From a virus: a DNA stretch of 64,000 nucleotides. The translations under genes and the position numbers were made by a program. The stretch lies in IMG/VR virus record IMGVR_UViG_3300009419_000012, positions 1-64,000 of that record; one strand, given 5' to 3'. Position 1 is the stretch's first letter, and each line of letters begins with the position of its first letter. The notes under the pieces were generated by a model. That model had not been told where the DNA came from. It ran no database searches and was given only the letters and a program-made list of their open reading frames with translations. Below, piece by piece: positions 19,101 to 59,542 of this stretch.

Positions 19101-19427
19101 TTATACTCGAAAACTTTCCCCGCATCCACAGCGGTCTCGTTCGTTGGGATTTGAAAAGTCAAACCCTTCATTCAATCCATTGCGCACGTAGTCTACTTCT
19201 AGACCATTCAAGTAAACTGAGTCTTTACCGTTTACCCAAATTGTTGCGCCATGGTGTTCATACTTGAACCAGTCTCTTGTGACTGGCACATGATCTATGT
19301 ATTCTAACACATAAGCCATGCCAGAGCAACCAGTAGTTCTAACTCCTATGCGTATGCCCACCCCAGTGCCACGCTTGGCTATGTTGTCTGTGATTTTCTT
19401 TGCCGCACGTTCAGTTAGAGTGATCAT
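19101..19427 (-). CDS. iscA: IscA-type Fe-S cluster carrier
   Basis: 108 residues from the ATG at 19427 (MITLTERAAKKI), with AAGAG upstream; an earlier codon would extend into iscU. The three conserved cysteines are present: GCSGMAY and the C-terminal CGCGESF. Length and motif are those of A-type carriers. It overlaps the end of iscU by 17 bases, so the two are probably translationally coupled. It would pass clusters made on IscU to apo-proteins during infection. Confidence 0.93.
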   Translation of the reverse strand: MITLTERAAKKITDNIAKRGTGVGIRIGVRTTGCSGMAYVLEYIDHVPVTRDWFKYEHHGATIWVNGKDSVYLNGLEVDYVRNGLNEGFDFSNPNERDRCGCGESFRV

Positions 19428-19794
19428 GTTTGCTCTTATAATCAATTATGGCTGCTTTGATAGCATCTTCTGCTAGAATTGAACAATGTATTTTTACTGG
19501 AGGTAGAGCTAGTTCTTCGGCGATGTCAGAGTTTTTGATTGATCCTGCTTCGTCAAGTGTTTTTCCTTTGACCCATTCAGTAACCAAACTCGAGCTTGCA
19601 ATGGCTGACCCGCAGCCATACGTCTTGAATTTTGCGTCCGTGATGATGCCATCTTGCACCTTTATCTGTAGTTTCATTACATCACCACACGCAGGTGCTC
19701 CTACCATGCCGGTGCCAACTGTGTCGTCAATTTCTAACTTGCCCACATTGCGTGGGTTTTCATAATGATCAATTACTTTGTCGCTGTATGCCAT
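19411..19794 (-). CDS. iscU: IscU Fe-S cluster scaffold
   Basis: 127 residues, full length. All three ligand cysteines are visible: GAPACGDVMKLQI, YGCGSAIASSS and KIHCSILAEDAI. The LPPVK motif recognised by the HscA chaperone is intact (ALPPVKIH). There is no phage cysteine desulfurase in the window, so it should take sulfur from the host IscS. With IscA it forms a two-gene Fe-S assembly unit carried as an auxiliary metabolic module. Confidence 0.95.
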   Translation of the reverse strand: MAYSDKVIDHYENPRNVGKLEIDDTVGTGMVGAPACGDVMKLQIKVQDGIITDAKFKTYGCGSAIASSSLVTEWVKGKTLDEAGSIKNSDIAEELALPPVKIHCSILAEDAIKAAIIDYKSKHDHSN

Positions 19795-19797
19795 TGG

Positions 19798-20400
19798 TTA
19801 TCCTAGGTTACCTGCTACACTGATACGCACACCGTCGGAGGTATAAAACGGTGATACTGTGTGTTTCATCTTGGCTGGAAATATTGCCATGCGTCCTTCC
19901 CAGCTTTTGTCAATTCTAAGAGTTGCTGTGGCAATGTCACCAAGCACTGTGGTGTAGGCAAATGAAAACATACTGACGTCTTGGTTCTTGGCAAGAGGAA
20001 ACATTTTTAGTTCTTCTTCGAGATCATAGGGAATGTTTACCCAGATCACCCAACTCAACACACCCGAATGATCATGCAAGGGATTGTATTCGTGCTTGAC
20101 CTGTAGGTTCACCCAGGACTCTTGAAATTTCACTGGTTGATCCGATACCATATGATTTCTTTTGAGATATTCGGCGCCAAGCAGTTCTATCAGTTGCTTG
20201 GCTTTGTCGCTTAACTCCAAGGAAAACTCGCCTTTGATTTGTCCAGCAAGTCTACTATTAAACAGTATGGCTTGTTTGTTTCCAGACATGATCTGATGCA
20301 CTTGCTCGTGTATTTCAGTCATTACCAGTTCTGGTGCATTCACTAGAATATAGTCAATGTTTGGTAATACATGTGTTTCAAATTGAAAATACTCGGCCAT
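19798..20400 (-). CDS. 2-oxoglutarate/Fe(II)-dependent oxygenase-like protein
   Basis: 200 residues. ESWVNLQVKHEYNPLHDHSGVLSWVIWV is the pattern of phage 2OG-Fe(II) oxygenases (first metal His and Asp/His in PLHDHSG). FPAKMKHTVSPF gives the distal His and VRISVAGN the 2-oxoglutarate Arg. Substrate unknown; related phage proteins are suspected to hydroxylate proteins or nucleobases. It lies between iscU and a structural cluster. Confidence 0.7.
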   Translation of the reverse strand: MAEYFQFETHVLPNIDYILVNAPELVMTEIHEQVHQIMSGNKQAILFNSRLAGQIKGEFSLELSDKAKQLIELLGAEYLKRNHMVSDQPVKFQESWVNLQVKHEYNPLHDHSGVLSWVIWVNIPYDLEEELKMFPLAKNQDVSMFSFAYTTVLGDIATATLRIDKSWEGRMAIFPAKMKHTVSPFYTSDGVRISVAGNLG

Positions 20401-20402
20401 GA

Positions 20403-20930
20403 CTATTTGCCTGGAGGGTTATATGTTTGTTCGTACTCGGCCTTGGCAATTCTGTAGTATCCTGCATCACCGTCTTTGACCAGATAATCGCCTGGCTTGA
20501 TTACCATGCTTTCGCCCCAAGGCGCTGTAAATTGCACAGCCTGCGGTGCTGTGTACACTGCCACTTGCCTGGGGCTCTGCTCAGGAATCACTGTGCTGCC
20601 AATTTCACCTTGGTACAGTTTGCCAAACTTGGCGCTTTTGATCACATAGTTTTCTTGGCTGGGCCCACTCAGCATGATATCGCCGGGTTCAGCTGTGTTG
20701 GTTGTTTCTTTACCATCACCTGTGATGGTATCCACTTGCATCTGTTGTTGAACTTGTGTGTAGGTCATTGGCGGCATCTTGTGCGGCTGACCATTGTCAA
20801 CATACTTGTATTGTTTGGCAAGTTTTGTTGTGGGCAAAAATTCCAAGCCGGAAGCAACTTGATTGATGTCAACCAAGTTTTCAGCTTCGACTATCATGTC
20901 TGAATACTTTCGAAAAAATTTTGGATCCAT
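20403..20930 (-). CDS. PGDYG-domain-like protein with candidate capsid-targeting peptide
   Basis: 175 residues. It contains two copies of a PGD-hydrophobic motif: AEPGDIMLSG...YVIKSAKFGKLY and IKPGDYLVKDG...YYRIAKAEYEQTY, the pattern of PGDYG domains. The N-terminus MDPKFFRKYSDMIVEA ends in I-V-E-A, resembling the capsid-targeting peptide of T4 internal proteins. The function of the domain is unknown. A TAAATA box precedes it. Confidence 0.6.
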   Translation of the reverse strand: MDPKFFRKYSDMIVEAENLVDINQVASGLEFLPTTKLAKQYKYVDNGQPHKMPPMTYTQVQQQMQVDTITGDGKETTNTAEPGDIMLSGPSQENYVIKSAKFGKLYQGEIGSTVIPEQSPRQVAVYTAPQAVQFTAPWGESMVIKPGDYLVKDGDAGYYRIAKAEYEQTYNPPGK

Positions 20931-20957
20931 TGTAAATACCCCTAGCTTATTGTAAGG

Positions 20958-20963
20958 TATTTA
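20958..20963 (-). promoter_or_regulatory. T4-late-like promoter AAATAAATACC
   Basis: The minus strand TAAATA core lies about 27 bases before the ATG at 20930. An AGGGG ribosome site follows in the leader. Confidence 0.5.
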
Positions 20964-20980
20964 TTTGGCTATGTCAATGG

Positions 20981-21364
20981 TCAGGAGCGATTGGCAGCGG
21001 CTTTTTTAGCCATTGCGTTGACAATACTTGTGGGATCTTTGGCACTGCCACCCGAACCAGTGTCGGCTGGTTCCTGTGGTGAGCCTGGCTCGTCGCCAAA
21101 AGCCTTGAGACTAAGATTGTCTCTATCCATATTGGATATTAGATTTCCAATATCGGCATTGTCGTTTTTCATTGCGTCAAACAATTCATAGGTCAAGGCA
21201 TCATAACCAATGATATTGTTTATCATGGTTATAACGCCCGACGTTGTGTGATTGGGCAATCGTTTTTTGTTGTGGTCCCGGTTGCGCAAAAACTCTAGGA
21301 CAGTTAGTATCTGCGCTTTGAGTTCGTCTTCCGAGGCACTCTCAAAGAGTTCTCGTAAACGCAT
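20981..21364 (-). CDS. Small head-region protein with LFE N-terminal motif
   Basis: 127 residues. MRLRELFESASEDEL begins with an L-F-E-S site of the prohead-protease type. The body is helical (LKAQILTVLEFLRNRD), and the C-terminus is low complexity (Gly/Ser/Pro, then Ala/Lys). No known domain. Two bases separate it from the upstream gene stop. An internal or scaffold role is inferred from the N-terminus and context. Confidence 0.55.
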   Translation of the reverse strand: MRLRELFESASEDELKAQILTVLEFLRNRDHNKKRLPNHTTSGVITMINNIIGYDALTYELFDAMKNDNADIGNLISNMDRDNLSLKAFGDEPGSPQEPADTGSGGSAKDPTSIVNAMAKKAAANRS

Positions 21365-21366
21365 GA

Positions 21367-22074
21367 TTATCTCTTGGCGCGACCTAGTGCTTCTTCACCG
21401 CCAGTGGCTGCATCAGTGGCTGCAAACTCGTCGCCACCCATTGCTGGCTCAGTGGCCATGTCAGGAGCACCGCCCATGTCGCCACCTGGTGCTGGAGGCA
21501 TGCCGCCAGCTGCCATTGGGTCTGCGCCTGGCATGCCCATTGGTGCAGCCACTTGCTCACCGGCCAGTGTACGTGCGGCACCGTCTGCTGTTTCACGAGC
21601 AGTTTGCAGTTGCCCAACCAACTCAGTCAACAAAGGTACAACTGTGCCTTTGAATGCATCAGCTTGTGGTTGACCAATTTGATCACGAATAGTGTCTAGC
21701 AGTGCAGGCAGTTGTTCATTCTGCATTTTGCTAATGTCTTCCAACATGTCTTGGAAACTGTCCACAATATCTTTGGCAGCTAGAATAGCACCTGATTTGG
21801 CAATTTCGCTTTCTGTTAAAGGACGGTTTTCATCCAGCCAACGATTCAATCCTTCACGCACCATTAGAAGTTCCATGTATTTAGGATTCTTCTCAGCGGT
21901 GTGAACACCAAAGCTGTGCTTGAGTTTGGTAAGATTTTCAGCTAGAGCTTTGTTCAATGAACGTGCTTTAGCAACAGTAAGTTGATCATAATCAATTCTA
22001 AAGCCAAAGCGGCTTTCATTGATTTTGTTAATCTTACGTGATGTTGGTCTTGTGGCTATATCTTGTAGTTTCAT
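21367..22074 (-). CDS. Probable scaffold/internal protein with Gly-Met-Pro-rich tail
   Basis: 235 residues. The N-terminus has a possible I-N-E-S cleavage site at about residue 20. The middle is a long helical region (residues 30-155, charged heptads). The C-terminal 70 residues are dominated by Gly, Ala, Met, Pro and Asp. The layout (helical core plus flexible acidic tail) is that of phage scaffolding or core proteins. A GCTAAATACTC box precedes it. Confidence 0.55.
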   Translation of the reverse strand: MKLQDIATRPTSRKINKINESRFGFRIDYDQLTVAKARSLNKALAENLTKLKHSFGVHTAEKNPKYMELLMVREGLNRWLDENRPLTESEIAKSGAILAAKDIVDSFQDMLEDISKMQNEQLPALLDTIRDQIGQPQADAFKGTVVPLLTELVGQLQTARETADGAARTLAGEQVAAPMGMPGADPMAAGGMPPAPGGDMGGAPDMATEPAMGGDEFAATDAATGGEEALGRAKR

Positions 22075-22642
22075 GGTTCGTTTCCCATACGTGTTTAGAG
22101 TATTTAGCCGCTGTAATCGTTTTCTGCATATTAGTTTGCAGAGTTTCTAGCAGTGGACGAGCATAGCTCAGGCGAGCAAGGTACAAATCAATAGCAAAAC
22201 CGTCACCTTTGCGCTGTGCTTGTTGCAGTTTTTCAGTGTAATGATTTACTTCATCTGCTATCTTGCCCAGTTGTTCATCGCCTTGCAAGAAGTCTGCGCT
22301 GTTTTTGAACTTGGCTTGAGTTTCGTACAAGCAGAAAAACACAGCGGCCTGCCTGATGTAAAAATCATGCACCCTGCGCTGATCCATGTCTGTTACTACC
22401 CAGCTGGTATCATGACGTTTGTGCAAATTAAATTTGCCCACACGATATTGATTTTTTCCAATTTCAATGCATACAAATCCATGTTGGCGGCTGAGTGTAT
22501 TGACTTGATCTAGACTCCACTGACTTACTAGCCTTAACAGCACTTCAGTCATTGCTTCGCCTTGTGCTTGATGCGTGGCTCGACGCATGAGCTTTTTGTT
22601 TACATTATTGCGAGATTTTTTTGGTGTACGTGACACGCCCAT
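22034..22642 (-). CDS. Hypothetical basic protein, 202 residues
   Basis: A basic N-terminus (MGVSRTPKKSRNNVNKKLMRR) is followed by a mixed region with WVVTDMDQRRVHDFYIRQAAVFF and a helical C-terminal half. No recognised domain. The 5' end overlaps the upstream gene by 38 bases and the 3' end overlaps the next by 41 bases, both in other frames. The true start might be a later Met. Confidence 0.5.
   Translation of the reverse strand: MGVSRTPKKSRNNVNKKLMRRATHQAQGEAMTEVLLRLVSQWSLDQVNTLSRQHGFVCIEIGKNQYRVGKFNLHKRHDTSWVVTDMDQRRVHDFYIRQAAVFFCLYETQAKFKNSADFLQGDEQLGKIADEVNHYTEKLQQAQRKGDGFAIDLYLARLSYARPLLETLQTNMQKTITAAKYSKHVWETNHETTRYSHKTNIT
22098..22108 (-). promoter_or_regulatory. T4-late-like promoter GCTAAATACTC
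   Basis: Identical in 11 bases to the box at 18384-18394. It lies about 23 bases before the ATG at 22074, inside the end of the upstream gene. Confidence 0.6.
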
Positions 22643-22817
22643 CGTTATTGATCCTTGCCAGCACGTCTTTGGTCACTAGGTTATTTGCTATAACAATCTC
22701 ACGTTCGTTGAGATCTTTCCTAGACACGCTGTTTCCTTCATGGAATTTTGATAAGAGGTCTGTTTCCTCGTTTGTAATGGGCAACAATAAACCCCGAGTG
22801 ACCTCTACTATTTTCAT
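22605..22817 (-). CDS. Small protein of the head-region operon, possible winged-helix
   Basis: 70 residues. LLSKFHEGNSVSRKDLNEREIVIANNLVTKDVLARINNDGRVTYTKK has the helix-turn-helix-strand order of a small winged helix, but this is pattern resemblance only. ATGA overlap with the upstream coiled-coil gene indicates translational coupling. Confidence 0.5.
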   Translation of the reverse strand: MKIVEVTRGLLLPITNEETDLLSKFHEGNSVSRKDLNEREIVIANNLVTKDVLARINNDGRVTYTKKISQ

Positions 22818-23071
22818 TTGTTTATAAAGTGTACCAGGACCGTGATTAGTCCGGTTATTAACACACTGACAATGGCTGTACCAATAGCAATCAATTGTTT
22901 GCTTTGTTTGTCACCGGCGCCAGCTAGTGCTTGTTTGATTTCAAGCACGTGAGTTTCTAAACGTTCAACCTTGGTCTCTACGCTTTGTATTTTGTTTTCC
23001 AACTTCTCATACCTTTCCGCACATAATTCTACATGGGCCTCAAGGTTATTCTTTTCTATATTCGTTGACAC
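22814..23071 (-). CDS. Coiled-coil protein with C-terminal membrane anchor
   Basis: 85 residues from a GTG at 23071 with CGGAG eight bases upstream. Residues 12-50 form a heptad coiled coil (YEKLENKIQSVETKVERLET). A hydrophobic segment (about 60-82, IGTAIVSVLITGLITVLVHF) ends the protein. This tail-anchored layout resembles XhlA-type accessory lysis proteins. The frame stays open upstream of the GTG without a usable start codon. A lysis or virion role cannot be separated from sequence. Confidence 0.55.
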   Translation of the reverse strand: MSTNIEKNNLEAHVELCAERYEKLENKIQSVETKVERLETHVLEIKQALAGAGDKQSKQLIAIGTAIVSVLITGLITVLVHFINK

Positions 23072-23163
23072 CGATTTTGCTCCGTTAAGTTTTAACGATG
23101 CTGTTTGTTGAGCCTTGATATGAGCCTTAATAGTTTGCCTATGGATGCCGTTGCATCTGTCAG

Positions 23164-23604
23164 TTATGTATTTAACCCAGATGGCGGAATCTTAAAATAT
23201 ATGTTTTTGATTGCACCAGACGTGTAAAATAATGGAAGCATAAAACGTGCTGTTTCTGTTAGATATGTAATAACCGGAATTTCATCAAAATCATCATGCA
23301 ACAATCCCACAGGGTCTGTTGCAGATTCATACGCACCTGCATGATCCACAGTGAACGCAAAACTCCATACCTTGTGAACGCCCTTGTACATTTCGCCAAA
23401 TTCATAATTATCTAGCGAAACTTCGTCCATTCTACATACTATGTCCACGGGTATGTTGCGAATACCAATACATTGCAGTATGGTTTCCCAGTTGCGTTGT
23501 TGATTACGTTCTAGTTCTTTGTTGCCTGTGTCACGTATCACTCCTGTGGGGGTGACGTCAACCAAGGTGTATCCAATAAACGTTTTATCTTGCATGATAT
23601 TCAT
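23164..23604 (-). CDS. Hypothetical phage protein, 146 residues
   Basis: Starts MNIMQDKTFIGYTLVDVT. It is an alpha/beta protein with TVDHAGAYESATDPVGLLHDDFDEIPVI and the C-terminal FKIPPSGLNT. No recognised domain. It sits directly after a terminator, and a TAAATA box ends five bases before the ATG, so a nearly leaderless late transcript is predicted. Confidence 0.55.
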   Translation of the reverse strand: MNIMQDKTFIGYTLVDVTPTGVIRDTGNKELERNQQRNWETILQCIGIRNIPVDIVCRMDEVSLDNYEFGEMYKGVHKVWSFAFTVDHAGAYESATDPVGLLHDDFDEIPVITYLTETARFMLPLFYTSGAIKNIYFKIPPSGLNT

Positions 23605-23609
23605 ACAGA

Positions 23610-23615
23610 TATTTA
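23610..23615 (-). promoter_or_regulatory. T4-late-like TAAATA box with five-base spacing to ATG
   Basis: The minus strand reads ACTAAATATCTGTATG. The box lies between the preceding terminator (23621-23644) and the ATG at 23604, with the same five-base gap seen at 1946-1951. Confidence 0.5.
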
Positions 23616-23620
23616 GTCAC

Positions 23621-23644
23621 AAAAAAAGCACCTTGCGGTGCTTT
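23621..23644 (-). terminator. Rho-independent terminator
   Basis: Minus strand: AAAGCACC-GCAA-GGTGCTTT followed by T, giving a GCAA tetraloop hairpin with a seven-T tail. It ends the short transcript of the 147-residue structural gene. Confidence 0.9.
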
Positions 23645-23664
23645 CTCTGTCACGGTGAATGTGA

Positions 23665-24108
23665 TTATGCAATGCTGTGTGAAGAACCAGTAGCAACTGT
23701 ACCACGGACCAAGTTGAAACCCTTGTCGCCGTATACACGAACACCACTCAAGCTCAAGCCATTGACTGTACCAGCGGCTGCAATAACTGTTGCTAGAGCG
23801 GCATTGCTGGTCCAAGCTGAACGCTCGACTAGAATTGATACTTGGCTACCCAAAGCGCCAGCATCTAGTGTGCTGTCAATTTGATAACCCATTACTGTTG
23901 CGTTTGCTGAGACTGAGTTGAGAATAGACTCAACTGCACCACCTGAACCCAATTGAGCTGCCAAGTTACCACCAACTTCAACACGGATAAAGCTGATTGG
24001 ATTAGCAATACCTGTTACGATAACTGCCGCGTTAGCATTTGCTTTGCTAGCTGAACCCAAATTATTGATGCCTTGTGCATCACCATTTACTCTTGTAAAA
24101 ACTGCCAT
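23665..24108 (-). CDS. Small abundant-type structural protein (decoration or tail-tube-like)
   Basis: 147 residues, Ala/Gly/Ser/Val/Asn-rich with no Cys and little charge. It starts MAVFTRVNGDAQGINNLG and ends KGFNLVRGTVATGSSHSIA. It has its own late box (24147-24155), a strong AGGAGAAATGAA ribosome site and an immediate terminator, the pattern of a highly expressed virion component. The family is not recognised; a head-decoration or similar small capsid protein is a reasonable guess. Confidence 0.6.
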   Translation of the reverse strand: MAVFTRVNGDAQGINNLGSASKANANAAVIVTGIANPISFIRVEVGGNLAAQLGSGGAVESILNSVSANATVMGYQIDSTLDAGALGSQVSILVERSAWTSNAALATVIAAAGTVNGLSLSGVRVYGDKGFNLVRGTVATGSSHSIA

Positions 24109-24146
24109 TTCATTTCTCCTATTATGTAGCGACTGTGCGCTTAAAG

Positions 24147-24155
24147 ATATTTATG
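24147..24155 (-). promoter_or_regulatory. T4-late-like promoter CATAAATAT
   Basis: The minus strand CATAAATAT lies about 38 bases before the ATG at 24108, the closest match after 53438-53445 to the T4 late consensus TATAAATA. Confidence 0.65.
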
Positions 24156-24705
24156 ATCTTGGCAAGAAATCTATTAAATCAAGCCTTACAGCATGTCTTG
24201 CTAGTTCTCTGCGTATATTATGCATGGCAAATGTACGATCGTTTTCGTTGTGTAGTTTCCAGTCCAGCACCACTCTACGCACCTGCGCCAGCGTGGCATC
24301 ATGTATGTTCATCATGGTTTCAATGTTCATGAATGTTTGTCTATCACGTCCATGATACCAAGTGCCTTGCCATACACCACGCAAATAGCTTTTTATCTGT
24401 AGCACAGGCGCACTGATGTCAAAGTTGGTTTCTATTCTGTCTTCCCAGTCACGCTGGTTGCTTAGTACAGCAATCAAGTTTGCTAGATCTGTTGCAGTGC
24501 CGCGCATGTGATCAAAATCACCCCATTGAATTGTTAGAGCCGCATAGTGTTTGGCCGCTGGCTCATCAAACTGTCGGATTGCTTCTATACTCAGCAAGCT
24601 CAGGTATATTATTCGTGCCAGCTCTTCTGCTGTTTTGCCTTGAATGCCCACAGGTGCTCGAAACATCCTGGCTTCAAAGATTTCACGTTTTATAAAATCA
24701 AACAT
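24151..24705 (-). CDS. Hypothetical helical protein with IFE-A N-terminal motif
   Basis: 184 residues, almost entirely helical and Arg-rich (ARIIYLSLLSIEAIRQF, WEDRIETNFDISAPVLQI). The N-terminus MFDFIKREIFEARM contains I-F-E-A, a candidate prohead-protease site. The start codon overlaps the stop of the ligase-like gene by one base. No recognised domain. It could be an internal head protein travelling with the upstream enzymes. Confidence 0.5.
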   Translation of the reverse strand: MFDFIKREIFEARMFRAPVGIQGKTAEELARIIYLSLLSIEAIRQFDEPAAKHYAALTIQWGDFDHMRGTATDLANLIAVLSNQRDWEDRIETNFDISAPVLQIKSYLRGVWQGTWYHGRDRQTFMNIETMMNIHDATLAQVRRVVLDWKLHNENDRTFAMHNIRRELARHAVRLDLIDFLPRS

Positions 24706-25856
24706 TATCCGTTTTTAGCAAAGTTGGCTTTGCTAAATCCCAATCTGTCAATCAACTTGAACTTGTCTGCGCCGCCGCCTACCACATAGCCCTCGTGCCC
24801 AGGATCGTTGCCTGTGAATGCTTGCACACCGCTTGCGGCCTGCTGTGCGTCAATTTGTTTCTTGATGTCTAGTTTGAAGTTGTACAATGCTACCCAAATG
24901 GCAAACATGCCTGCTAAGCCTGCACGACCTTCTTTGTACAGCCAGCCCTGTCCACCGCCCAGTAGCTTTTGATTGGCGCCCGGCGATAGGTTGCTGTTTA
25001 GATATGTGTAAAATCCTTCCAACATTTGATCAAAGTTGCCTGCTGTGATCTTGCTGGTAATGTACTTGCTGGCCAAGCCAATGATGCCCTTGGCTTTTAA
25101 CACAGTGAGTTCATTCATGAATGAATCTACAGCTTGTTCGTAGCTGGCAATAACTTTGTTTACAGAGTCGGTGGATGCTTTTTCAATGTTGACTTTGGGC
25201 ACTGGCATTTCACCGCTTACAAACCATATGGGGTTTCCATCAGCAGGCAATCCGCCTAGGCCTTTGAGTGGTTGATCTGGCTCGCCTATGCCTGGAATAA
25301 ATGTGTGTACTGCAATGCCACCAATGCTACTGGAAATGTTATTCGCAATAGGATTTGGCTTGTCTCCCAGTTTGACTGGTACCTTGTAGGTCACTGTGTT
25401 GGGTTTGAATACATAGAATCCATCAACTGGTTGTAGTCGGCCTGCATACAACAGGTCACCAAAGTAAAAGCCGCGGAAGTTGCCTGGAATAATTGATTCC
25501 AGTGCAGGCCATAGCACATTGATTTTGCCATATAGGTCAGCACGGTCAGCACCACGATTGATGTCGTACTGTTGAAATGCCTCCGGACTGGTCACACGCC
25601 CTGAGCCGTCTTTTTTATCAAACATGTGTTTGTCTGTGACCATAAGCTGGCCATCAACATTGCGTCCAAATATCAGTGCTGGAAAGCCGTCCCACTTGAT
25701 TGTGGTAAGTTCTTTTCCGCTTGTCATTTTAGACAAGTTGGCCACTGCTGTTCGTGCGCCTGCAATGCCATCTGTCCAGATTGAATCTTCAGGATGTACA
25801 ATACCTTCTTTGAGTACAGTAGTGGGTTTGCGTTCAAATAGTTCTGTTATCTTCAT
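24705..25856 (-). CDS. Nucleic-acid ligase-like nucleotidyltransferase (KxDG), candidate packaged protein
   Basis: 383 residues. It shows the collinear motifs of covalent nucleotidyltransferases (DNA/RNA ligases and capping enzymes): motif I TTIKWDGFPAL (Lys nucleophile), motif III-like FRGFYFGDLLY, motif IV HEGYVV, motif V ADKFKLIDRLG. The motif IV-V block lies at the very C-terminus, so there is no separate OB domain. The N-terminus MKITELFERK carries an L-F-E site of T4 capsid-targeting type. It is coupled by ATGA to the upstream nucleotidyltransferase. Whether it joins RNA or DNA, or caps ends, is unknown. Confidence 0.7.
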   Translation of the reverse strand: MKITELFERKPTTVLKEGIVHPEDSIWTDGIAGARTAVANLSKMTSGKELTTIKWDGFPALIFGRNVDGQLMVTDKHMFDKKDGSGRVTSPEAFQQYDINRGADRADLYGKINVLWPALESIIPGNFRGFYFGDLLYAGRLQPVDGFYVFKPNTVTYKVPVKLGDKPNPIANNISSSIGGIAVHTFIPGIGEPDQPLKGLGGLPADGNPIWFVSGEMPVPKVNIEKASTDSVNKVIASYEQAVDSFMNELTVLKAKGIIGLASKYITSKITAGNFDQMLEGFYTYLNSNLSPGANQKLLGGGQGWLYKEGRAGLAGMFAIWVALYNFKLDIKKQIDAQQAASGVQAFTGNDPGHEGYVVGGGADKFKLIDRLGFSKANFAKNG

Positions 25857-26872
25857 ACAAAATATCCTTTGACCATTTTTAGACCTTGCAGGATTTTTTT
25901 GCGATCTTCTTCTGCACGTGCAATAGCATCTGGCGTTTGTGCTTTGTCACGTTTCTTACCTTGTATATCTATCATGGCCTTTTCTTCATATCGTTGCCAA
26001 AACTTATTTAAGAAGTCTCCAGCACTTGAAAATCCAGATAGATCAGTTTTTCCAAACATGCCATTGGCTTCTGCACTGGCCGCAAAACCTTTCATGCCTT
26101 GCACCAGTTTGTTTATTTTTACATCATTGATGTCGTTGCCAGGAAACTGTTTCAGCAGTGGAGACACCTGAGGCTGTTCAAGTCCTTGCTGTTGGGCCAG
26201 ATACATGAATGTGTCAAGTATAAATGTTTCTGGGTCAATTGACACAGTCATTACCTGTGTGTCTTTTTGCTTGCTGAATGGTACACGTTGTCCGTCAATG
26301 ACTTTTAATTGTACGCCAGCATGCTGTATGCTCATGTCCAGCAGTTCACCAAACACACTGTACATGTTGCCTGTTAGCAGGCCTTTGACGCCATGCTCAG
26401 GTGTGACTCTAGTGGCACCCCAGTTGCGTAGTTTCTCTTCGTGCCACATGAAGTCAACTTGTACATAAGAGTCTGCGCCTATCTTCATGATAGGATGCCC
26501 TGGCTTGCTTTCAACAGGATGCACATAGCTGGGACGTTGTGTTTTTACAAACTCGTCTGCAAGTTTGTTCCAGTGACTGGTAAACTGTCCGTATGTCATG
26601 CCTTCCACAGGAGGCGCAATCATCTGCAGGTCAATATCTCCGTAGACTTTATCGGGATTTTCTTTGGTGTCTTTTTCATGGTAAGCACTGGAACCAGTAG
26701 GACGACCCATTTCAACAGGGCCTTGATCTTTGCTTGACAAGAACTGGTTAAAATCTTGAACAAACTGTTGTACGGTATCAAGAGTTACTTGGACCACACG
26801 TGGATTGATCACAGTGCCTTGTGTGACTGTGGTATCCCAGCCACCTTCAATCAAGAACTCGTAGCTTTTCAT
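25853..26872 (-). CDS. Pol-beta-type nucleotidyltransferase, candidate packaged protein
   Basis: 339 residues. GRPTGSSAYHEKD...VYGDIDLQMI supplies the G-S helix and the D-x-D metal pair of the pol-beta nucleotidyltransferase fold, and YVQVDFMWHEEKL the third acidic strand. A helical C-terminal half follows. The N-terminus MKSYEFLIEGG closely resembles the T4 internal-protein leader (MKTYQEFIAEA), with cleavage expected after L-I-E. It lies between a second nucleotidyltransferase and the ligase-like gene. Its nucleotide and acceptor are unknown. Confidence 0.7.
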   Translation of the reverse strand: MKSYEFLIEGGWDTTVTQGTVINPRVVQVTLDTVQQFVQDFNQFLSSKDQGPVEMGRPTGSSAYHEKDTKENPDKVYGDIDLQMIAPPVEGMTYGQFTSHWNKLADEFVKTQRPSYVHPVESKPGHPIMKIGADSYVQVDFMWHEEKLRNWGATRVTPEHGVKGLLTGNMYSVFGELLDMSIQHAGVQLKVIDGQRVPFSKQKDTQVMTVSIDPETFILDTFMYLAQQQGLEQPQVSPLLKQFPGNDINDVKINKLVQGMKGFAASAEANGMFGKTDLSGFSSAGDFLNKFWQRYEEKAMIDIQGKKRDKAQTPDAIARAEEDRKKILQGLKMVKGYFV

Positions 26873-27643
26873 TTATCTCACCAGTACTGATTGCATCTGG
26901 CGAAACCAGGTGGGAGATCCTTCTTCAAGTTTCTTGGGCAATGTGATCAAACCTTTTGCTTCATCGCCACGAGCTTGTGCTAGTTTTTGTTCGCGTTCGG
27001 GATCGTTGGCCAATGCTTGAAGGATATTTTTCACACTGTTGAGATCATCACCAGTGGCTTTGGGATTTAACAAAATCTTGGCCACGCTGTCACGATCACG
27101 TGCTACCACTGTGTTGTCATCACGGCGCAATAGTTTGCCACCAAATGCATCAAACTTGAGTCCTAGTGCTTTGCCAATTGAATTCATTACTATAAAGATT
27201 GGCTGTCCTGCAAACTCAGGATCCTTGTAGCTGCCACGTGGACCGTGTTGGTGATACGGAGCCACAATGCTGGCATCATGTATGACCATGACGTCGACTT
27301 GTGCCACTGCACCTTTGTAGGGAATGCCAATGCTGACATTGTTGCCGTTGGTTTTGGCTTCAATGCCTTTGCCGCGGAAATAAGCTTCTAGTGCTTTTTT
27401 GGCAGCTAGTACAGGATTTTTTTCATCCTGTGTGCGAAACAGTGCCACAACATCTTCTGCTTCGACCATGACGTCAATGTCACCAGACTCAACCTTGTAG
27501 CCAGCTGAGCCAATGTCTGTTTGCAGTCTGCGTAGCAGTGCTTCAGGCATGATCTTTCGTGCTGTGGCCACAATGGTTGCAACATCGTTTTTTGCAACAG
27601 GTATGCTGGATGGGATAGCGTTACCGCCTTCGTTCAAACGCAT
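26873..27643 (-). CDS. Second pol-beta-type nucleotidyltransferase
   Basis: 256 residues. IGSAGYKVESGDIDVMVE carries the G-S and D-x-D motifs; VAQVDVMVIHD is the third carboxylate strand. Helices follow (LNSVKNILQALANDPEREQ). MRLNEGG at the N-terminus gives an L-N-E-G candidate maturation site. It differs from its neighbour in length and sequence, so the pair is not a recent duplication. It starts three bases after the 1161-residue gene and abuts the next, forming a three-gene enzyme cassette. Confidence 0.7.
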   Translation of the reverse strand: MRLNEGGNAIPSSIPVAKNDVATIVATARKIMPEALLRRLQTDIGSAGYKVESGDIDVMVEAEDVVALFRTQDEKNPVLAAKKALEAYFRGKGIEAKTNGNNVSIGIPYKGAVAQVDVMVIHDASIVAPYHQHGPRGSYKDPEFAGQPIFIVMNSIGKALGLKFDAFGGKLLRRDDNTVVARDRDSVAKILLNPKATGDDLNSVKNILQALANDPEREQKLAQARGDEAKGLITLPKKLEEGSPTWFRQMQSVLVR

Positions 27644-27646
27644 TGT

Positions 27647-30600
27647 TTACTCCATTGCCAATACAAACTTTTCAAATTCACGTGCAATCTTGGCATCAGC
27701 TGATTCTTTGATGTATTTGCCGCCAAACACTTTGCGTGACTCGGCTACTCTAGATACCGGAGGAGCTTCGCCTCCGCCACCCGGAATAACTCTTGATGGT
27801 CCTAGTTCAGCAGGTGGTGCCGCTGTATCAGTGGCCGGTGCTGGTGCACCTGGCTTTTTCTTTTTCTTTGTACGTGTGATTATGTCTTGCGCTTTTTCAC
27901 GTTGCTTGCCAGTGCTTGTTCCACGGAACTGTGCCATTTTTTCTCTGTAGGCAGTAGGAGCACTACGTTGCAACACACTCAATGCTGTGTCAACAATAGT
28001 AATCAAGTCATCTGCATAAGCAGGGCCAGTCATGCGAGCCAGTTGTGGTAAAATGGTTGTGGTTGCGCTGGTAATCTGTCCATCGCCAGACGAGCCACCC
28101 GGTGCAGTTCCACCCACAGCGCCTGGTGCAGTTCCACCAGTCACGCCTGGTGCTGTGCCTCCAGCGGCACCTCCAGCGGCTCCGCCACCACCGGCAGCTG
28201 ATGGGTCAGCAACTGGAGCATTCACTGGGCCAAGACCTTGACGCTTGCGAATTGCATCCAGTCTTACTTTTTGTGCCGGTGTCAGTGCAGGACCGCCACT
28301 CATAGCGGCATTGGCTGCATCAATAATGTCATCGTCTGAAAACTCAGTTTTGGCTGGGGTAAGATTTTGTGGAGCAGGTAATCCCATGGTGCTGAACAAG
28401 CTCATGATGTATTCTTGCGGAACACCATTACGTGCTAGGATTTGTCCAACGCTGTCAACATCTGTTGGACTGCCTGCGTCTTTCCACATACGCATGAGAC
28501 GTTCTTTGTTGACCTTGGTTGTTCCTCGATTCCACCCTCTTGCAATTTGGGCACCAGCTGTGGACAAACCTTTTTCAACCTTGTCCATGAACTTGTTGCC
28601 CACTTGTCCAGTATAGTTGGTCTGTGGCGGTGTGGCAGGTGCAGTGTCAGCTGTTGGAGCGGCATCAGCTGGTTCGTCACCTGTTGGTGTAAACATTCGA
28701 GACAGATCCTGCCGTGCTTGTACCGATCCAGCTGGCTTGTTGGCCATGCTGTCACCAGGTTGTTGCATGCGATAGTCATTGCTGGTTGGGTTGGCTGTGG
28801 CCACTGCGGCGGCAGCTCTTGGGCTTGTTTGTGCAAACTGTTGTGCTGTTTGCCCAGTTCTACCAGCTTGCTGACCCATTGCAGTAGAAGTTTCACGACC
28901 GTAGTTGTTTCTGCGAGCTTCTGTAAAATCTCTTTCCCAGAGCTTTTCAATGTTGTCAAACAAAGTGTTGAGACCACGTTCACTTAGATACAGTGGACGA
29001 CCTGAGCGGCCAAGACTTTCGTTTAGTGCCCACTTGTGTAGTGTTGTAGCTCTGTCAAACATCTCACTCTTGGCAAGATAGCCCACAGTAATACCTTCAA
29101 GCACGCCGCGACCTTTTGTGACTTTGATTTTGCTAAATCCTTCAAATTCTTTGGTTTGCTTTTCTCTTTTGGCTTCGCCAGCTTTGTTTGTCTTGTCAAT
29201 TAATGCCTTGGGAGTAATGTAACCATAGCTAACGTCAGACAGTTTTCCGGTAGTTGGATTTGATCTTGGAGGCATTATTGAAATAATCACATCCTGTACA
29301 ACCCATTCCATTGAGGCTACTTCGCCTTTATTTGGACCAGCTACGTACCTCTCTTCTTTAGAAGGTTTTCCGTATTTTTTAGAAACAATACTTTCAAAGT
29401 CCATAACATTGCCGGGACCGGGGTATGTATTGATATTTACTAATCTTCCTTGCTCAAATTTTGCAAGCATTTTTATATCAGCAACATTAAACACATAACC
29501 AAAATCTCCAAATTTTTCAGTGCTTATTTTTTTGAAATCCTCTTCAGACATTCCAAATCTAATAGTTCCATTTTTCAAAGAAAATTTAGATAACTCACCT
29601 GGTGTATTTGGTTCAGCTGCCATGGGTTCAGCTGCCATGGGTTCAACAGCCTTTGGCTTAACCTGCGCAATGCTTCTGCCAATTGCACTACCACTGCTGG
29701 AATTATCTGCGCTAATTGGAGTAACTTTTTTAGTGTCTGTGTCTACCACAAACTTTTTAACCGCATCAACTGGAATAGCTTTTTCGCTACTGACGGCTTT
29801 TATTTTGCCGGCACTGTCAACATAGGTGTATACCTTGTCTGCATAAGCGCCTGTGCTTGTTGCAAATGCTAGTGCTGCCGCCGCTAGTTTGCTGGCCATG
29901 CCTTCATCTAGCTGGTCTTCATTCATGGCGGCTCTGGTGGCATCGGTGGCAATTCTGTTAGCAGCCATGCCTTGATCTGGTCCCAGCTGTCCAGCTTTCA
30001 TCTTGTTATAGATATTCTGTGCTGTCATGGCATTGTCGCCTTGATATGCACCTTTATAGGCAGCGGCATCTATGTTTTTAGGCAACACAATTTTATCACC
30101 TGGATTCAAAATATTAGGATTGCCTTGAGGGCCAAATTTGTCTGGATTGAGTTTTGCTAGTTCGTCTGGGTTTACCTTGTACTTGTCAGCAAAGCCTGTC
30201 ATGGTGTCGCCTTTTTTGGCAACTATAGTTTGTGTTTCGCCACCTGTCACTGCTGGTTTAGGTGGGGTTGTACCTCCGCCACCGCCTGGGTTAGTTTCGC
30301 CACCTGTCACTGCTGGCTTGGGTGGGGTTGTTGTGCCTCCGCCACCGCCTGTTGTGGCATCTGCCGCGCTGGCATCGGGAATTAGCCCCTTGGTAGTGTC
30401 TGCAAAATTCTGCGCACCTTGTGATATGGCACTGCCAAGTTTGTTGGCACCTGCTTGTGCCGCTTGACCTAGATTGCTTATGCCTTGACCAATTTTGTTT
30501 ACCACAGGAGTTGCCGCATCAATAGCCGCACCAGCCGCAGTTTTTGCACCCACCATTGCTGCCGCCGCGCCACCTTGCATGGTACCAGCACCAACAGATC

Positions 30601-31132
30601 CTGACAATGATTTGTTCTTTAACAGGTCATCAGCTGTTTTTGTAGCACCCAACAAGATTGGTCCTGTAACGCCAGCAGAAGCATATCCAGTTAGCACTGT
30701 GAGCAAACCGTACATGAATTTGCCTGATACAGGGTACTTCTCCCAGAACTGTCTGTAGTGATCAAGTTTTTGTAGTACTTGTGCGCCACCTTCACTTTTG
30801 CCCATTTTTGCCGCAATCTTGGCCTTGGCATCGTCAAAGTGTTGATCCATGTTGCGAACTAGTGTGGTGTCTTGTAGCAGTCTACCAAGGCCCTTGACTT
30901 TGTCCACCACAGCACCTACGCCAGCACCCACTTTGCCCAAAAAGGTTTTGTTGTTACCGGTACTGGTCATGGTTTCTTCTGCGGCTGCAAACAGTTGTTC
31001 AATCTGTGCTGGTGTTAGTGCTTCAGCTTCTAATAGCAGATTAAACTGTTGGCCAATCATGTATGCTTCGTGATACAACGGGCTTGAAGCCAGGTCGTGA
31101 TATGGTGTTTCTGTTAAATGCGTGGCTTTCAC
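27647..31132 (-). CDS. Giant mosaic internal/virion protein with LysM domain
   Basis: 1161 residues. The N-terminus MKATHLTETPYHDL has an L-T-E site, and LLLEAEAL near residue 33 offers another. Order: helical region; Gly/Ala-rich hydrophobic stretch (130-200); PPKPAVTGGET repeats (about 265-300); LysM (KKGDTMTGFADKYKVN...NILNPGDKIVLP, about 300-352); at 412-432 a secretion-signal-like stretch ending TGAYAD, then a DUF4124-like YTYVDSAGKIKAVS; an AT-richer block to about 660; helical and Pro/Ala/Thr linkers; GGTAPG repeats; a Lys-rich tail. LysM suggests contact with peptidoglycan. It may be an internal protein cut into pieces. Confidence 0.65.
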   Translation of the reverse strand: MKATHLTETPYHDLASSPLYHEAYMIGQQFNLLLEAEALTPAQIEQLFAAAEETMTSTGNNKTFLGKVGAGVGAVVDKVKGLGRLLQDTTLVRNMDQHFDDAKAKIAAKMGKSEGGAQVLQKLDHYRQFWEKYPVSGKFMYGLLTVLTGYASAGVTGPILLGATKTADDLLKNKSLSGSVGAGTMQGGAAAAMVGAKTAAGAAIDAATPVVNKIGQGISNLGQAAQAGANKLGSAISQGAQNFADTTKGLIPDASAADATTGGGGGTTTPPKPAVTGGETNPGGGGGTTPPKPAVTGGETQTIVAKKGDTMTGFADKYKVNPDELAKLNPDKFGPQGNPNILNPGDKIVLPKNIDAAAYKGAYQGDNAMTAQNIYNKMKAGQLGPDQGMAANRIATDATRAAMNEDQLDEGMASKLAAAALAFATSTGAYADKVYTYVDSAGKIKAVSSEKAIPVDAVKKFVVDTDTKKVTPISADNSSSGSAIGRSIAQVKPKAVEPMAAEPMAAEPNTPGELSKFSLKNGTIRFGMSEEDFKKISTEKFGDFGYVFNVADIKMLAKFEQGRLVNINTYPGPGNVMDFESIVSKKYGKPSKEERYVAGPNKGEVASMEWVVQDVIISIMPPRSNPTTGKLSDVSYGYITPKALIDKTNKAGEAKREKQTKEFEGFSKIKVTKGRGVLEGITVGYLAKSEMFDRATTLHKWALNESLGRSGRPLYLSERGLNTLFDNIEKLWERDFTEARRNNYGRETSTAMGQQAGRTGQTAQQFAQTSPRAAAAVATANPTSNDYRMQQPGDSMANKPAGSVQARQDLSRMFTPTGDEPADAAPTADTAPATPPQTNYTGQVGNKFMDKVEKGLSTAGAQIARGWNRGTTKVNKERLMRMWKDAGSPTDVDSVGQILARNGVPQEYIMSLFSTMGLPAPQNLTPAKTEFSDDDIIDAANAAMSGGPALTPAQKVRLDAIRKRQGLGPVNAPVADPSAAGGGGAAGGAAGGTAPGVTGGTAPGAVGGTAPGGSSGDGQITSATTTILPQLARMTGPAYADDLITIVDTALSVLQRSAPTAYREKMAQFRGTSTGKQREKAQDIITRTKKKKKPGAPAPATDTAAPPAELGPSRVIPGGGGEAPPVSRVAESRKVFGGKYIKESADAKIAREFEKFVLAME
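28085..28185 (-). repeat. Tandem coding repeats GGTAPG in the giant protein
   Basis: Short in-frame repeats (about 24-27 bases, for example ggtgcagttccaccc on the plus strand) encode GGTAPG(A/V) units. They form a flexible linker prone to slippage and length change. Confidence 0.7.
30235..30352 (-). repeat. Tandem 60-base coding repeat PPKPAVTGGET
   Basis: Two near-identical copies (ccacctgtcactgctggytt on the plus strand and flanks) encode GGGGTTPPKPAVTGGET just before the LysM domain. Third-codon differences show that the duplication is not brand new. Confidence 0.75.
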
Positions 31133-31371
31133 TTGCGTATTCTCCTAATTCCTCTGATGAATTTATTTGGATCCTGCGCACGAATGCTGTTTAACAGTCG
31201 TCGTTCAAGCTCTGACGCCATGTCTGGGTCGTAGCTTTCCCTTATGGTATTGATTAGATTAATTGCGCCCTGGATGACATGGTCAGCGCGGCTTTCTAGC
31301 ACATTTTCTTTGTCTTTTTCAATGAAATGGCTATCAAGTTCTTCCAGGAGGCTACGTGTTTTTTTAAGCAA
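31129..31371 (-). CDS. Small helical head-assembly-type protein
   Basis: 80 residues from a TTG at 31371 with GGAG eight bases upstream. MLKKTRSLLEELDSHFIEKDKENVLESRADHVI is amphipathic helix, and ERRLLNSIRAQDPNKFIRGIRRIRK a basic C-terminus. Size and charge resemble small prohead-core proteins of T4-like phages, but I cannot confirm homology. ATGA coupling to the giant gene and a late box upstream support a morphogenetic role. Confidence 0.55.
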   Translation of the reverse strand: MLKKTRSLLEELDSHFIEKDKENVLESRADHVIQGAINLINTIRESYDPDMASELERRLLNSIRAQDPNKFIRGIRRIRK

Positions 31372-31390
31372 AATCAGGCTCCAATTCTGT

Positions 31391-31400
31391 ATTATTTATC
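31391..31400 (-). promoter_or_regulatory. T4-late-like promoter GATAAATAAT
   Basis: The minus strand GATAAATAAT lies about 20 bases before the TTG start of the small head-assembly gene. It lies in the short gap where early replication genes end and late morphogenesis genes begin. Confidence 0.55.
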
Positions 31401-31426
31401 GAAACCTGCGGTAGGTCGTACTCAAG

Positions 31427-32824
31427 TTACCCTTGTCCAGTTTTGATAGCAGCCAGCATGCTTTTGAGCTTGTTGTTGCCTACTTCAGCGTGTATGGGTG
31501 CTGTGTCTTTTATTTCACCAGTGCTGACATCCACTGTGCTACGTGCTTTGATTTGATTCATGATGCTGGTTGCTTGTGGTTGGTAGCCACTGGCTTCTTC
31601 ACCTTCATCTGTGATACGCATGGTTTCGATGTTGTAGGTTAGATCCACTTTCATGCCCATGCCTGTTGAGCTTCGACTTTTCATACACTGTATTTGATAG
31701 CGTCCACGTTCACGCATGGCTCTGCTAGTAAAGATACCAAACACATTATCTGCTGTGTTAATTTTACTAATACCACCTGAAATATGACTGTGGTCAAATT
31801 CAATTTCATCCACAGCACCACGATTAAGCTGTGACGCTGTTACCATTAGTATGCCCAGCTCTTTGGCCAAGTTACGCAGTTCTTCACTCACATACTTGTC
31901 CTTCACAAACAAGTCGTTAGGACTGACCTTGGCACTCACTGGCATCAGCAGATCCAAGTAGTCAATCATGATAAAGTCTACCCGGCGATTTGTCTGTATT
32001 TGATACTCTTTCAAAAATGCACGAATGTCATTGATATTGCTTTGCGCTGGCAAACCCTTGACCTGATATGTGCCTGACTTCTTGCCCACCATCTTGACTT
32101 TGAGTGTTGTGGTATCAATGTCCTTGCGAATATCTTTTGTGCTCATGCTACTTAACATTGCATCAGTACGCAAGCTGGTTAGTTCTTCACTCAGTTCTAG
32201 TGTGACATACACACCATGCAATCCTGTTTGAATCCAGTTAAGAGCAATGTTCATCATCACAAGAGATTTACCTGATCCTGACCCGCCTGCAAAGATGTTG
32301 AGTTCGCCGCGACTGAAGCCACCGTACAACAATTTGTCCAGCTGTGGCCATCCTGTTGACACTTGCCCGCCTGAGTTGAAATACTTGTTGATGCGTTCTG
32401 CAGGATCTGCAAAGTAGTCTGTGCCTAGGTCTTTTTGCAAACTGATCTGCACAGCATCTTTGATCAGTTTTTCTACAGGATTGAAATCACCGTTTTCAAT
32501 TAGATCAGCGGCTTTGAGAATTGCACGTTCTAGTTCTTTTTGTTTGGTAAAGTTTTCAAACTCTTCCAGGAACCAGCTGGTGTGTCCTTCATTTAGATCC
32601 GGCACTGGTCTCAGTTCCACACCAGTTGTGGCACGTATTTGATCTAGGTTGGGTAGAGTCTTGTGTTTTTCGCTGTGTTCTTTGATAAACTTTGCCACTG
32701 CACGTAAACTGCGATCAAAGTTTTCTTCGTTGTAGATGTTCTGCACACGCACATAGCTACCTGCGTCATGCAACATCATTTCAAGAAATAACTTTTGTAA
32801 GTCTGGATTGTAGTCTTTTGTCAT
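31427..32824 (-). CDS. Replicative DNA helicase, DnaB/gp41-like
   Basis: 465 residues. N-terminal helical domain (1-150), then a RecA-type motor: STGWPQLDKLLYGGFSRGELNIFAGGSGSGKS (Walker A near residue 178), VYVTLELSEE, FIMIDYLDLLMP (Walker B), MVTASQLNRGA (sensor) and a C-terminal arginine-rich block. The layout and length are those of T4 gp41. The ATG overlaps the primase stop by four bases, coupling the two primosome subunits. Confidence 0.93.
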   Translation of the reverse strand: MTKDYNPDLQKLFLEMMLHDAGSYVRVQNIYNEENFDRSLRAVAKFIKEHSEKHKTLPNLDQIRATTGVELRPVPDLNEGHTSWFLEEFENFTKQKELERAILKAADLIENGDFNPVEKLIKDAVQISLQKDLGTDYFADPAERINKYFNSGGQVSTGWPQLDKLLYGGFSRGELNIFAGGSGSGKSLVMMNIALNWIQTGLHGVYVTLELSEELTSLRTDAMLSSMSTKDIRKDIDTTTLKVKMVGKKSGTYQVKGLPAQSNINDIRAFLKEYQIQTNRRVDFIMIDYLDLLMPVSAKVSPNDLFVKDKYVSEELRNLAKELGILMVTASQLNRGAVDEIEFDHSHISGGISKINTADNVFGIFTSRAMRERGRYQIQCMKSRSSTGMGMKVDLTYNIETMRITDEGEEASGYQPQATSIMNQIKARSTVDVSTGEIKDTAPIHAEVGNNKLKSMLAAIKTGQG

Positions 32825-33888
32825 AGCTTATTATATAGTGTTTTGCTCTTGAGCTCAATCTTTAAGGCACTCGTCTCACGAGCGTCCAGTATGCTTTTGA
32901 GAACAAACAAAGGGCCAAGGTGTTCCACCGCAGAAGCTGTGTCTTTGTATTTTTCGCTCCACACCGGAAAGCTCACAGTCCATCCATAGCCTATTGCCGC
33001 ATCAATAAGACTGCGCCCGGGCCAGACTTTTTTACCTGTGCGTTCGTTCACGTGTACATCAAAGTCGGGCACCACTATGACTTCTCTACCAAGGCTTTCA
33101 ATGATGTCTGCTTGTGTATCATTTATTTCGTTGCTCAAGATAGCCACACCATCTATGCTCATGGCATCAAATGGGCCTTCTACCACAATAACAAACTGCG
33201 AAGTTGGCCGCTGTTTGTCAACGTTGAACACAAAGTTTGGTTCGTGGCTGTTGTGATACTTGGGCTTTACTCCGTCTACTAGTGCTCTAGCAGTGTAACC
33301 AATGATTTGATTTTTCCAAGTAAACGGAATTATCACACGACGATCCAGGTTGTAACTGGACTCATCAGTTATGTAAAAGTCATATTTGTTTGTGTTTATC
33401 TTGCGATTATAAACATACTCCACTGCATTGTTAAGCTGTTCGGGCACAACATAATCATCGTCAGTTAGACCTAGCATGGTTGCCCACTCGCTGAAGCTGG
33501 CGCTGTCCTCAGGCAAGGGTCTGGGCTTGAACGTTATTTCAACTTCGGGCACTGGCGCACGTTCGGCTACTGGTACCAGCTCTTTGATACGCAAGGCCTC
33601 CATGACCAGTCGCTGTACAGTGTTGTCATCTGCACCTAGCCATTTCAACAACTTGCGGAATTTGAATCCAATTGGACGCCCAGGATAGAAGCCTGTTTTG
33701 AATCCGCAATTGAAACAATGATAGCTGACAGATCCATCTGCGTTTGGTCTGACGCCGCCGCGCTTGCGAGTGTCTACGCTTTCGCCGTTGTGCGGGCAAC
33801 AAACTGCATTGAAGCTGATCCAGTCGTTGGATTGCTTACGCCGGGCTGGCAGTAGTTGCAGTAGCTCTTGTTGTACTATATCATACAT
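32821..33888 (-). CDS. DNA primase with zinc ribbon and TOPRIM
   Basis: 355 residues from the second of two adjacent ATGs (33888), chosen because the promoter puts +1 on it. A zinc ribbon (CCPHNGES...YHCFNCGF) occupies residues 30-65. The RNA-polymerase/TOPRIM core shows RRVIIPFTWKNQIIGYTAR, VIVVEGPFDAMS (TOPRIM Glu) and VVPDFDVH (TOPRIM Asp pair). It makes primers for the phage fork with the gp41-like helicase encoded immediately downstream. Confidence 0.92.
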   Translation of the reverse strand: MYDIVQQELLQLLPARRKQSNDWISFNAVCCPHNGESVDTRKRGGVRPNADGSVSYHCFNCGFKTGFYPGRPIGFKFRKLLKWLGADDNTVQRLVMEALRIKELVPVAERAPVPEVEITFKPRPLPEDSASFSEWATMLGLTDDDYVVPEQLNNAVEYVYNRKINTNKYDFYITDESSYNLDRRVIIPFTWKNQIIGYTARALVDGVKPKYHNSHEPNFVFNVDKQRPTSQFVIVVEGPFDAMSIDGVAILSNEINDTQADIIESLGREVIVVPDFDVHVNERTGKKVWPGRSLIDAAIGYGWTVSFPVWSEKYKDTASAVEHLGPLFVLKSILDARETSALKIELKSKTLYNKL

Positions 33889-36042: not shown

Positions 36043-36274
36043 TTTGTTTCTTCAGCGTGTAGAGTATTTTAGCACGTTCTAGACATTCTTGCAAGCCAGG
36101 ATCATCCCGATAGCGAGCATCAAACATCATGTTGATAAAGTCGTTTAGATCGTACAAGGCATCTGCCACAACCATTTCTTGTAGATCTGGATGCTTGATG
36201 TACACAGTATCCGCACCATCTGTGTGATGCATGATATTGATAGTTGTACAGTTCTTAATGGTTGCGTTTGCCAT
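36035..36274 (-). CDS. Small hypothetical protein of the replication block
   Basis: 79 residues from the ATG at 36274 (MANATIKN), which avoids a longer overlap with the cupin gene. Acidic/helical, with IKHPDLQEMVVADALYDLNDFINMMFDARY and a Cys/Lys-rich C-terminus. No recognised domain. Overlaps neighbours by 8 and 20 bases. Confidence 0.55.
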   Translation of the reverse strand: MANATIKNCTTINIMHHTDGADTVYIKHPDLQEMVVADALYDLNDFINMMFDARYRDDPGLQECLERAKILYTLKKQNG

Positions 36275-59538: not shown

Positions 59539-59542
59539 ATGA

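Follow-up and report, generated by a model that had tools for sequence, protein, structure and literature searches.

In T4, internal proteins that join a conserved leader to variable cargo are already known (PMC3012670). IpI, IpII and IpIII carry a short leader of the type MKTYQEFIAE↓A (arrows mark cleavage sites, known or candidate), and Alt, a packaged and injected ADP-ribosyltransferase, has a leader cut at ITE-6 (PMC5694885). The ejection proteins of phiKZ and SPN3US, which go with an S80 protease, are likewise head proteins of jumbo phages, and a gp21-related protease cuts them after E; their motif is A/S-x-E and their propeptides mostly exceed 100 residues (PMC5694885). In Agrobacterium phage Atu_ph07, the block of CDS 31-76 is reported with 29 virion proteins identified by MS (PMC6102473), and the cytidylyltransferase T4-GC190 was detected in virions of cyanophage S-SM1 (PMC3037559). 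Within an incomplete set of titles and abstracts on the 'capsid targeting sequence', none appeared to concern PA5oct-like phages, cyanophages or nucleotidyltransferases.

Here we describe a cluster of 14 genes, at positions 20403-31371 on the minus strand of a 64,000-nt window (the whole stretch of DNA analysed). We consider it very probable that the cluster represents late operons for internal head proteins, with leaders removable by an S77 protease and with delivery alongside the DNA as the most likely outcome. The window is part of the virus record IMGVR_UViG_3300009419_000012 (75,697 bp), and the cluster lies directly downstream of the primase and helicase genes (Table 1). The best relatives of the helicase are found in the Pseudomonas jumbo phage PA5oct and its kin (50% identity); the Atu_ph07 helicase is 51% identical over a shorter stretch. 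Much of the remaining record consists of tail-fibre-like, replication and sugar-nucleotide genes, and its 75.7 kb contain no genes homologous to those of PA5oct for portal, capsid, protease or terminase. The record is therefore a fragment of a PA5oct-like jumbo phage of the T4 superfamily. PA5oct gp259-gp245 and Atu_ph07 CDS 31-76 occupy the same position after primase and helicase, include proteins detected in virions by MS, and share with the cluster the families of gp259, gp247, gp250, gp253, gp064 and gp065. These blocks differ in enzyme content, and the publications covered give no description of their leaders.

Table 1. Genes, leaders and TAAATA boxes of the cluster and its flank, in window coordinates
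Feature	Position	Strand	Remarks
Primase	32821-33891		adjoins cluster
DnaB-type helicase	31427-32824		adjoins cluster
TAAATA box	31393-31398	-	22 nt upstream of six-gene operon 31371 to 24151; kept before 17/17 distinct homologs
80-aa protein, first cluster gene	31129-31371	-	begins with TTG; match (E 2e-18) to PHROG 11854, 'head and packaging, virion structural protein', hence a virion structural family
1161-aa LysM-domain protein	27647-31132	-	likely leader MKATHLTE↓T (31109-31132)
NTase2, 256 aa	26873-27643	-	leader MRLNE↓GG (27629-27643)
NTase1, 339 aa, Pol-beta-fold nucleotidyltransferase	25853-26872	-	leader MKSYEFLIE↓GG (26846-26872)
DUF6267 ligase-like enzyme, 383 aa	24705-25856	-	leader residues 1-17 ending VLKE↓G (25806-25856)
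184-aa protein	24151-24705	-	leader MFDFIKREIFE↓A (24673-24705)
TAAATA box	24148-24153	-	upstream of 23665-24108; kept in 9/10 homologs
147-aa protein	23665-24108	-	leaderless; weakly homologous (4e-4) to PA5oct gp251, which MS detected
TAAATA box, weak	23610-23615	-	6 nt from start codon of 23164-23604; kept in 6/12 homologs
146-aa protein	23164-23604	-	no leader; homolog of PA5oct gp250 (MS-detected), 9e-8
70-aa protein, virion structural family	22605-22817	-	no clear leader; PHROG 16215 head and packaging, 4e-8
TAAATA box	22101-22106	-	upstream of 21367-22074; kept in 20/20 homologs
235-aa protein, virion structural family	21367-22074	-	PHROG 14154 head and packaging, 6e-10
127-aa protein	20981-21364	-	possible leader MRLRELFE↓S
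TAAATA box	20958-20963	-	upstream of 20403-20930; kept in 3/3 homologs
175-aa PGDYG-like protein	20403-20930	-	leader MDPKFFRKYSDMIVE↓A (20886-20930)

The preliminary description of this DNA had read nine N-termini ending in [L/I]-x-E as leaders and had held that nine in one cluster were unlikely to arise by chance. All nine are present on the minus strand, in products starting at 20930, 21364, 22074, 24705, 25856, 26872, 27643, 31132 and 31371, with GTG at 31132 and TTG at 31371 in place of ATG. Between residues 2 and 20, [LI]xE was counted in 10/14 genes of the cluster as against 11/72 elsewhere in the record (Fisher p = 5.6e-5); in the replication/early block next to it, the figure is 3/22. 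When a small or acidic residue is required after the E, 8 cluster genes and 3 others qualify. The bare motif is cheap, since 15-20% of 19-residue windows taken at random contain it, and conservation among homologs from IMG/VR relatives was therefore taken as the real test. By this measure the leaders of 20930, 24705, 25856, 26872 and 27643 stood, that of 31132 is likely, and those of 21364, 22074 and 31371 fell away. The E of LFE↓S in the 21364 product is kept in only 2/9 relatives, the INE↓S of the 22074 product (residue 20) is a weak candidate inside a conserved region, and LLE at 31371 belongs to LLEEL in the conserved body; these three motifs are probably not leaders. A commonplace motif whose run in the cluster means nothing would account for the background frequency and for these three of the nine sites, unconserved or within domains. 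The conservation tests largely refute such an explanation, which is extremely improbable: the enrichment has the small p value given above, and in divergent relatives, protein families with no relation to one another still begin with the leader and keep E↓G or E↓A/S without exception.

The individual leaders are conserved in different ways. Among NTase1 homologs, P1 is E and P1' is G in 26/26, and P3 is I, L or V; in one NTase1 homolog, a 35-residue spacer separates MKSKHFVSE from VRE↓GGWD. Nearly all leader-bearing NTase2 homologs have E↓GG (with E↓GGN kept), and a few homologs without the leader begin M-GG. For DUF6267, cleavage had been proposed at LFE↓R, residue 8; the conserved site is instead LKE↓G at residue 17, where 30/40 homologs have E, followed by G in 29. 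The product of gene 24705 has E at P1 and A or S at P1' in 16/16 homologs, and its leader is more conserved than its body (62% versus 44% identity), as is that of gene 20930 (mean identity 82% versus 47%, from three sequences only). The LysM-domain protein has a second candidate site, LLE35↓A; its homologs begin MKSHLLLIE↓R or MKAHHLLIE↓R and also have another site, for instance YLTE↓A.

The likeness to T4 leaders was assessed with a profile built only from the leaders of uncultivated relatives, without T4, and run over the N-termini of 266 T4 genes. It placed gp24 (MAKINELLRE↓S, cut by gp21) first, IpII fifth and IpIII sixth, and separated eight known gp21 substrates from the rest with an AUC of 0.86 (p = 3e-4). 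IpI, gp22 and gp23 ranked poorly, so that the profile recognises the gp24/IpII/IpIII type of leader. Ranks 2 and 3 went to T4 (AF158101) 61.1 (MKTFKEFIKE↓DMV) and gp2 (MAIFQIINE↓STP), whose N-termini are leader-like. In the AF2 models, the leaders are disordered next to folded domains: NTase1 has a pLDDT of 87 overall and below 50 in residues 1-11, and DUF6267 has a pLDDT of 86 and below 50 in residues 1-17, the disorder stopping exactly at LKE↓G. Both leader/domain boundaries are conserved among homologs. The conserved N-termini might instead stay uncut and serve another role, such as docking to a phage protein or the replisome, with the E merely part of a domain. That the cluster adjoins primase and helicase, and that NTase1 E↓GGWD is continuous with an invariant stretch, would fit such a role, which we nevertheless find quite improbable given the disorder of the modelled leaders, the NTase2 homologs that start at M-GG, the occurrence of the same leader type on T4 gp24, IpII and IpIII and on gp333 of the PA5oct head block, and the late-type promoters predicted to drive the cluster.

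T4 late promoters are built around the core TAAATA. Such boxes stand upstream of 5/14 cluster genes versus 0/22 genes of the replication block (p 0.005), and also precede the tail-fibre-like genes of the record; in relatives, they are absent or rare before operon-internal genes. Counted over the whole window, TAAATA occurs at chance level; what carries information is solely its placement immediately before late-type genes and its retention in relatives. An exact search for the T4 late consensus TATAAATA gave a single match, likewise at chance level. The box is a weak marker in PA5oct (7/93 versus 7/359). A late sigma factor is encoded by PA5oct and by a 322-kb relative, and together with the conserved boxes this leads us to expect late expression of the enzymes, during head building. 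The cluster operons are accordingly expected, from their upstream sequences, to be transcribed from T4-type late promoters.

The cutting enzyme would be a prohead protease, and a search for a gp21-like one outside the window had been suggested. A Peptidase_S77 search found none in this 75.7-kb record, which is devoid of head genes, in a 168-kb relative that also lacks the whole head block, or in five shorter records. The complete 322-kb relative does have a head block, with an S77 protease (53% identity to PA5oct gp331), a major capsid protein (66%) and a portal, and the same genome encodes tagged NTase1 (MKIFELLRE↓GG), tagged DUF6267 (VLRE↓GIDHPED) and an NTase2-like protein. A Gp23 search of 14 contigs found only one split capsid gene. 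This gp23-type match, at 35657-37757 of contig G007, is divided, and the 2 kb that separate its two parts are perhaps an inserted intron or endonuclease.

Presence in virions is seen for homologs and syntenic proteins in related phages. In the PA5oct block after the helicase, gp258, gp257, gp254-gp249 and gp247-gp245 bear ESI-MS/MS notes. The detected gp253 is a homolog of NTase2 (HMM E 1e-5, HHalign 82%), as is Atu_ph07 gp065, both being without the leader; gp256, a weak DUF6267 homolog, has no MS-detected mark. The 31371 product is homologous to PA5oct gp259 (9e-30), annotated as virion structural, and to Atu_ph07 gp068 (3e-14); the 22074 product to PA5oct gp247 (MS-detected, 7e-26); and the 24705 and 22817 products to Atu_ph07 gp064 (2e-26) and gp046 (3e-10), respectively. 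MS detection in PA5oct is no proof of an internal location, since UvsX, RNR and thymidylate synthase carry the same notes. Bare [LI]xE was dropped as a predictor because PA5oct MS-detected proteins are not enriched in it (19/93 versus 61/309). A strict leader pattern occurs in 6/93 MS-detected versus 1/309 other PA5oct proteins (p = 8e-4), among them gp333, whose gene lies between those for portal and protease in the head block; as the pattern was drawn up after some of those N-termini had been viewed, this result is supportive and not independent.

Taken together, the conservation, the T4 cross-validation, the late promoters, the S77 protease in a relative with tagged enzymes and the virion MS of homologous or syntenic proteins make head packaging by T4-type leaders, as originally put forward, well supported for the leader-bearing cluster proteins. 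By analogy with T4, injection of the packaged proteins with the DNA is likely, and the enzymes may then act in the first minute of infection, as the preliminary description foresaw. The proteins could also be packaged and trimmed and yet serve as structural parts or as core components, remaining in the particle or working in head assembly, the nucleotidyltransferases then not being injected effectors. Several cluster members do belong to families that PHROG names virion structural protein, and the same kind of leader is found on T4 head proteins that are not injected, gp24 among them. We judge this alternative rather unlikely, as NTase1, NTase2 and DUF6267 look like enzymes and the cargo varies among relatives (nucleotidyltransferases, cytidylyltransferases, ART-like arrays) at a constant locus, which is what effectors would be expected to do.

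In the preferred scheme of packaging followed by injection, the cluster proteins would be made late, while heads assemble. NTase1, NTase2, DUF6267 and others would be anchored within the prohead core by their leader, which is 5-17 residues long and typically of the form M[KR]-x-x-[DE]-hydrophobic-[LI]-x-E. An S77 (gp21-family) prohead protease would then cut behind the E, and the mature enzyme would remain in the head together with the DNA. Delivery at infection, as for the T4 internal proteins and Alt, may then allow an early function, probably the repair of RNA/DNA ends or the modification of host targets.

What the enzymes do can be approached from their motifs and models. NTase1 has a Pol beta/lambda fold (Foldseek prob 1.00, E 2e-3, TM about 0.3) and a largely invariant GS...DxD...D motif (TGSS...YGDIDLQ...VQVDFM); by motif and modelled fold, it is assigned to the Pol-beta nucleotidyltransferase superfamily. 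It matched no Pfam family at E up to 0.05, RlaP (RNA ligase-associated Pol-beta) included, nor any annotated phage by tblastn, and no cellular homolog was confirmed in GTDB genomes. The product of 25856 belongs to PF19782, DUF6267 (110 bits versus a curated cut-off of 27). Its invariant motifs K54xDG (KWDG), E355G and K367/R371 (EGYVV...K..R) suggest a ligase/capping-type enzyme, and its fold matches are ligases, but weak ones (E at least 0.2). Searches of PDB sequences with NTase1, NTase2, DUF6267 and the ART-like array of Atu_ph07 gave nothing useful. A pairing of RNA ligases and Pol-beta nucleotidyltransferases for RNA repair has been reported in jumbo phages (PMC7824862), and by analogy NTase1 and DUF6267 could form an RNA-repair pair delivered early; as NTase1 has no Pfam family, the pairing is a lead only.

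The locus resembles the T4 internal proteins in its short [LI]xE-ending leader, its conserved leader with variable cargo, its predicted late expression and the S77-type protease of the group. Unlike IpI, IpII and IpIII, its cargo includes nucleotidyltransferase-fold and ligase-like enzymes, and its leaders vary in length and are missing in some homologs. With Alt it shares the idea of a head-carried enzyme with a short leader (Alt MELITELFDE, DUF6267 MKITELFE), whereas the chemistry differs, the cluster enzymes being Pol-beta nucleotidyltransferases and ligase-like. ART-like relatives of the Alt type are found instead in Atu_ph07 (NC_042013), where gp053-gp062 (26470-36493) are ten tandem paralogs within the syntenic block, sharing 17-36% identity with the first member of the alignment. 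In their leader M[RK]W-x-x-L-x-E, M1, W3, L6 and E8 vary no more than do the ART-type R, S and E, residues that make the array ART-like in sequence. One paralog, gp053, additionally has a zeta-toxin-like kinase domain. In cyanophages, the equivalent locus lies between gp41 and gp61 and pairs DUF6267 (T4-GC71) with T4-GC190 next to the helicase. The S-SM1 GC190 gene, whose product was reported from virions as noted above, adjoins DUF6267 and begins MKKFSAFLNE↓A; most cyanophage DUF6267 proteins are without a leader. The difference is that GC190 is a HIGH-type cytidylyltransferase, a class taken from annotation, and not a Pol-beta nucleotidyltransferase. With respect to phiKZ and SPN3US, the cluster differs in both motif and propeptide length.

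These comparisons raise the idea, for and against which we see an even balance, that phages across the T4 superfamily use the locus beside primase and helicase as a cargo bay, conserved in place but with exchangeable contents. In PA5oct-like phages, Atu_ph07-like phages and cyanophages, leaders would route sets of enzymes to the head (Pol-beta nucleotidyltransferase and ligase-like pairs, cytidylyltransferases or ART-like arrays), and these would serve as ready-made kits for repair, counter-defence or takeover, at work before phage gene expression begins. If packaging holds true, the leader would be a genome-readable predictor of head-carried proteins in jumbo phages and cyanophages, and the T4 internal-protein idea would widen to nucleic-acid enzymes. 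It would also account for unexplained 'structural' proteins that cluster near replication genes, point to effectors that act from the very start of infection and provide natural tags for packaging. Existing virion proteomes suffice to check much of the packaging prediction.

Several further observations concern the surroundings. In the 168-kb relative (G001), a second leader cluster at 87.9-98.5 kb (MRYNELVNE, MKINEIITE, MRYNELLE, MRYNEIIE, MRYSELIE, MKSLEFLLE) has one member homologous to the MS-detected PA5oct gp279, and a likely nucleotidyltransferase with the N-terminus MRLQEFDK lies at 97760-98473. In the window, a 2OG-Fe(II) oxygenase gene (19798-20400) stands immediately beyond the cluster end, next to side-by-side iron-sulfur genes (19101-19794) named by eye as IscU-like and IscA/ErpA-like. 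A tandem paralog pair at 58090-60964 has near-identical N-termini (MIIEQIK...) and appears by eye to be AMP-binding-enzyme-like, and a second tandem paralog pair at 46327-47990 also looks duplicated.
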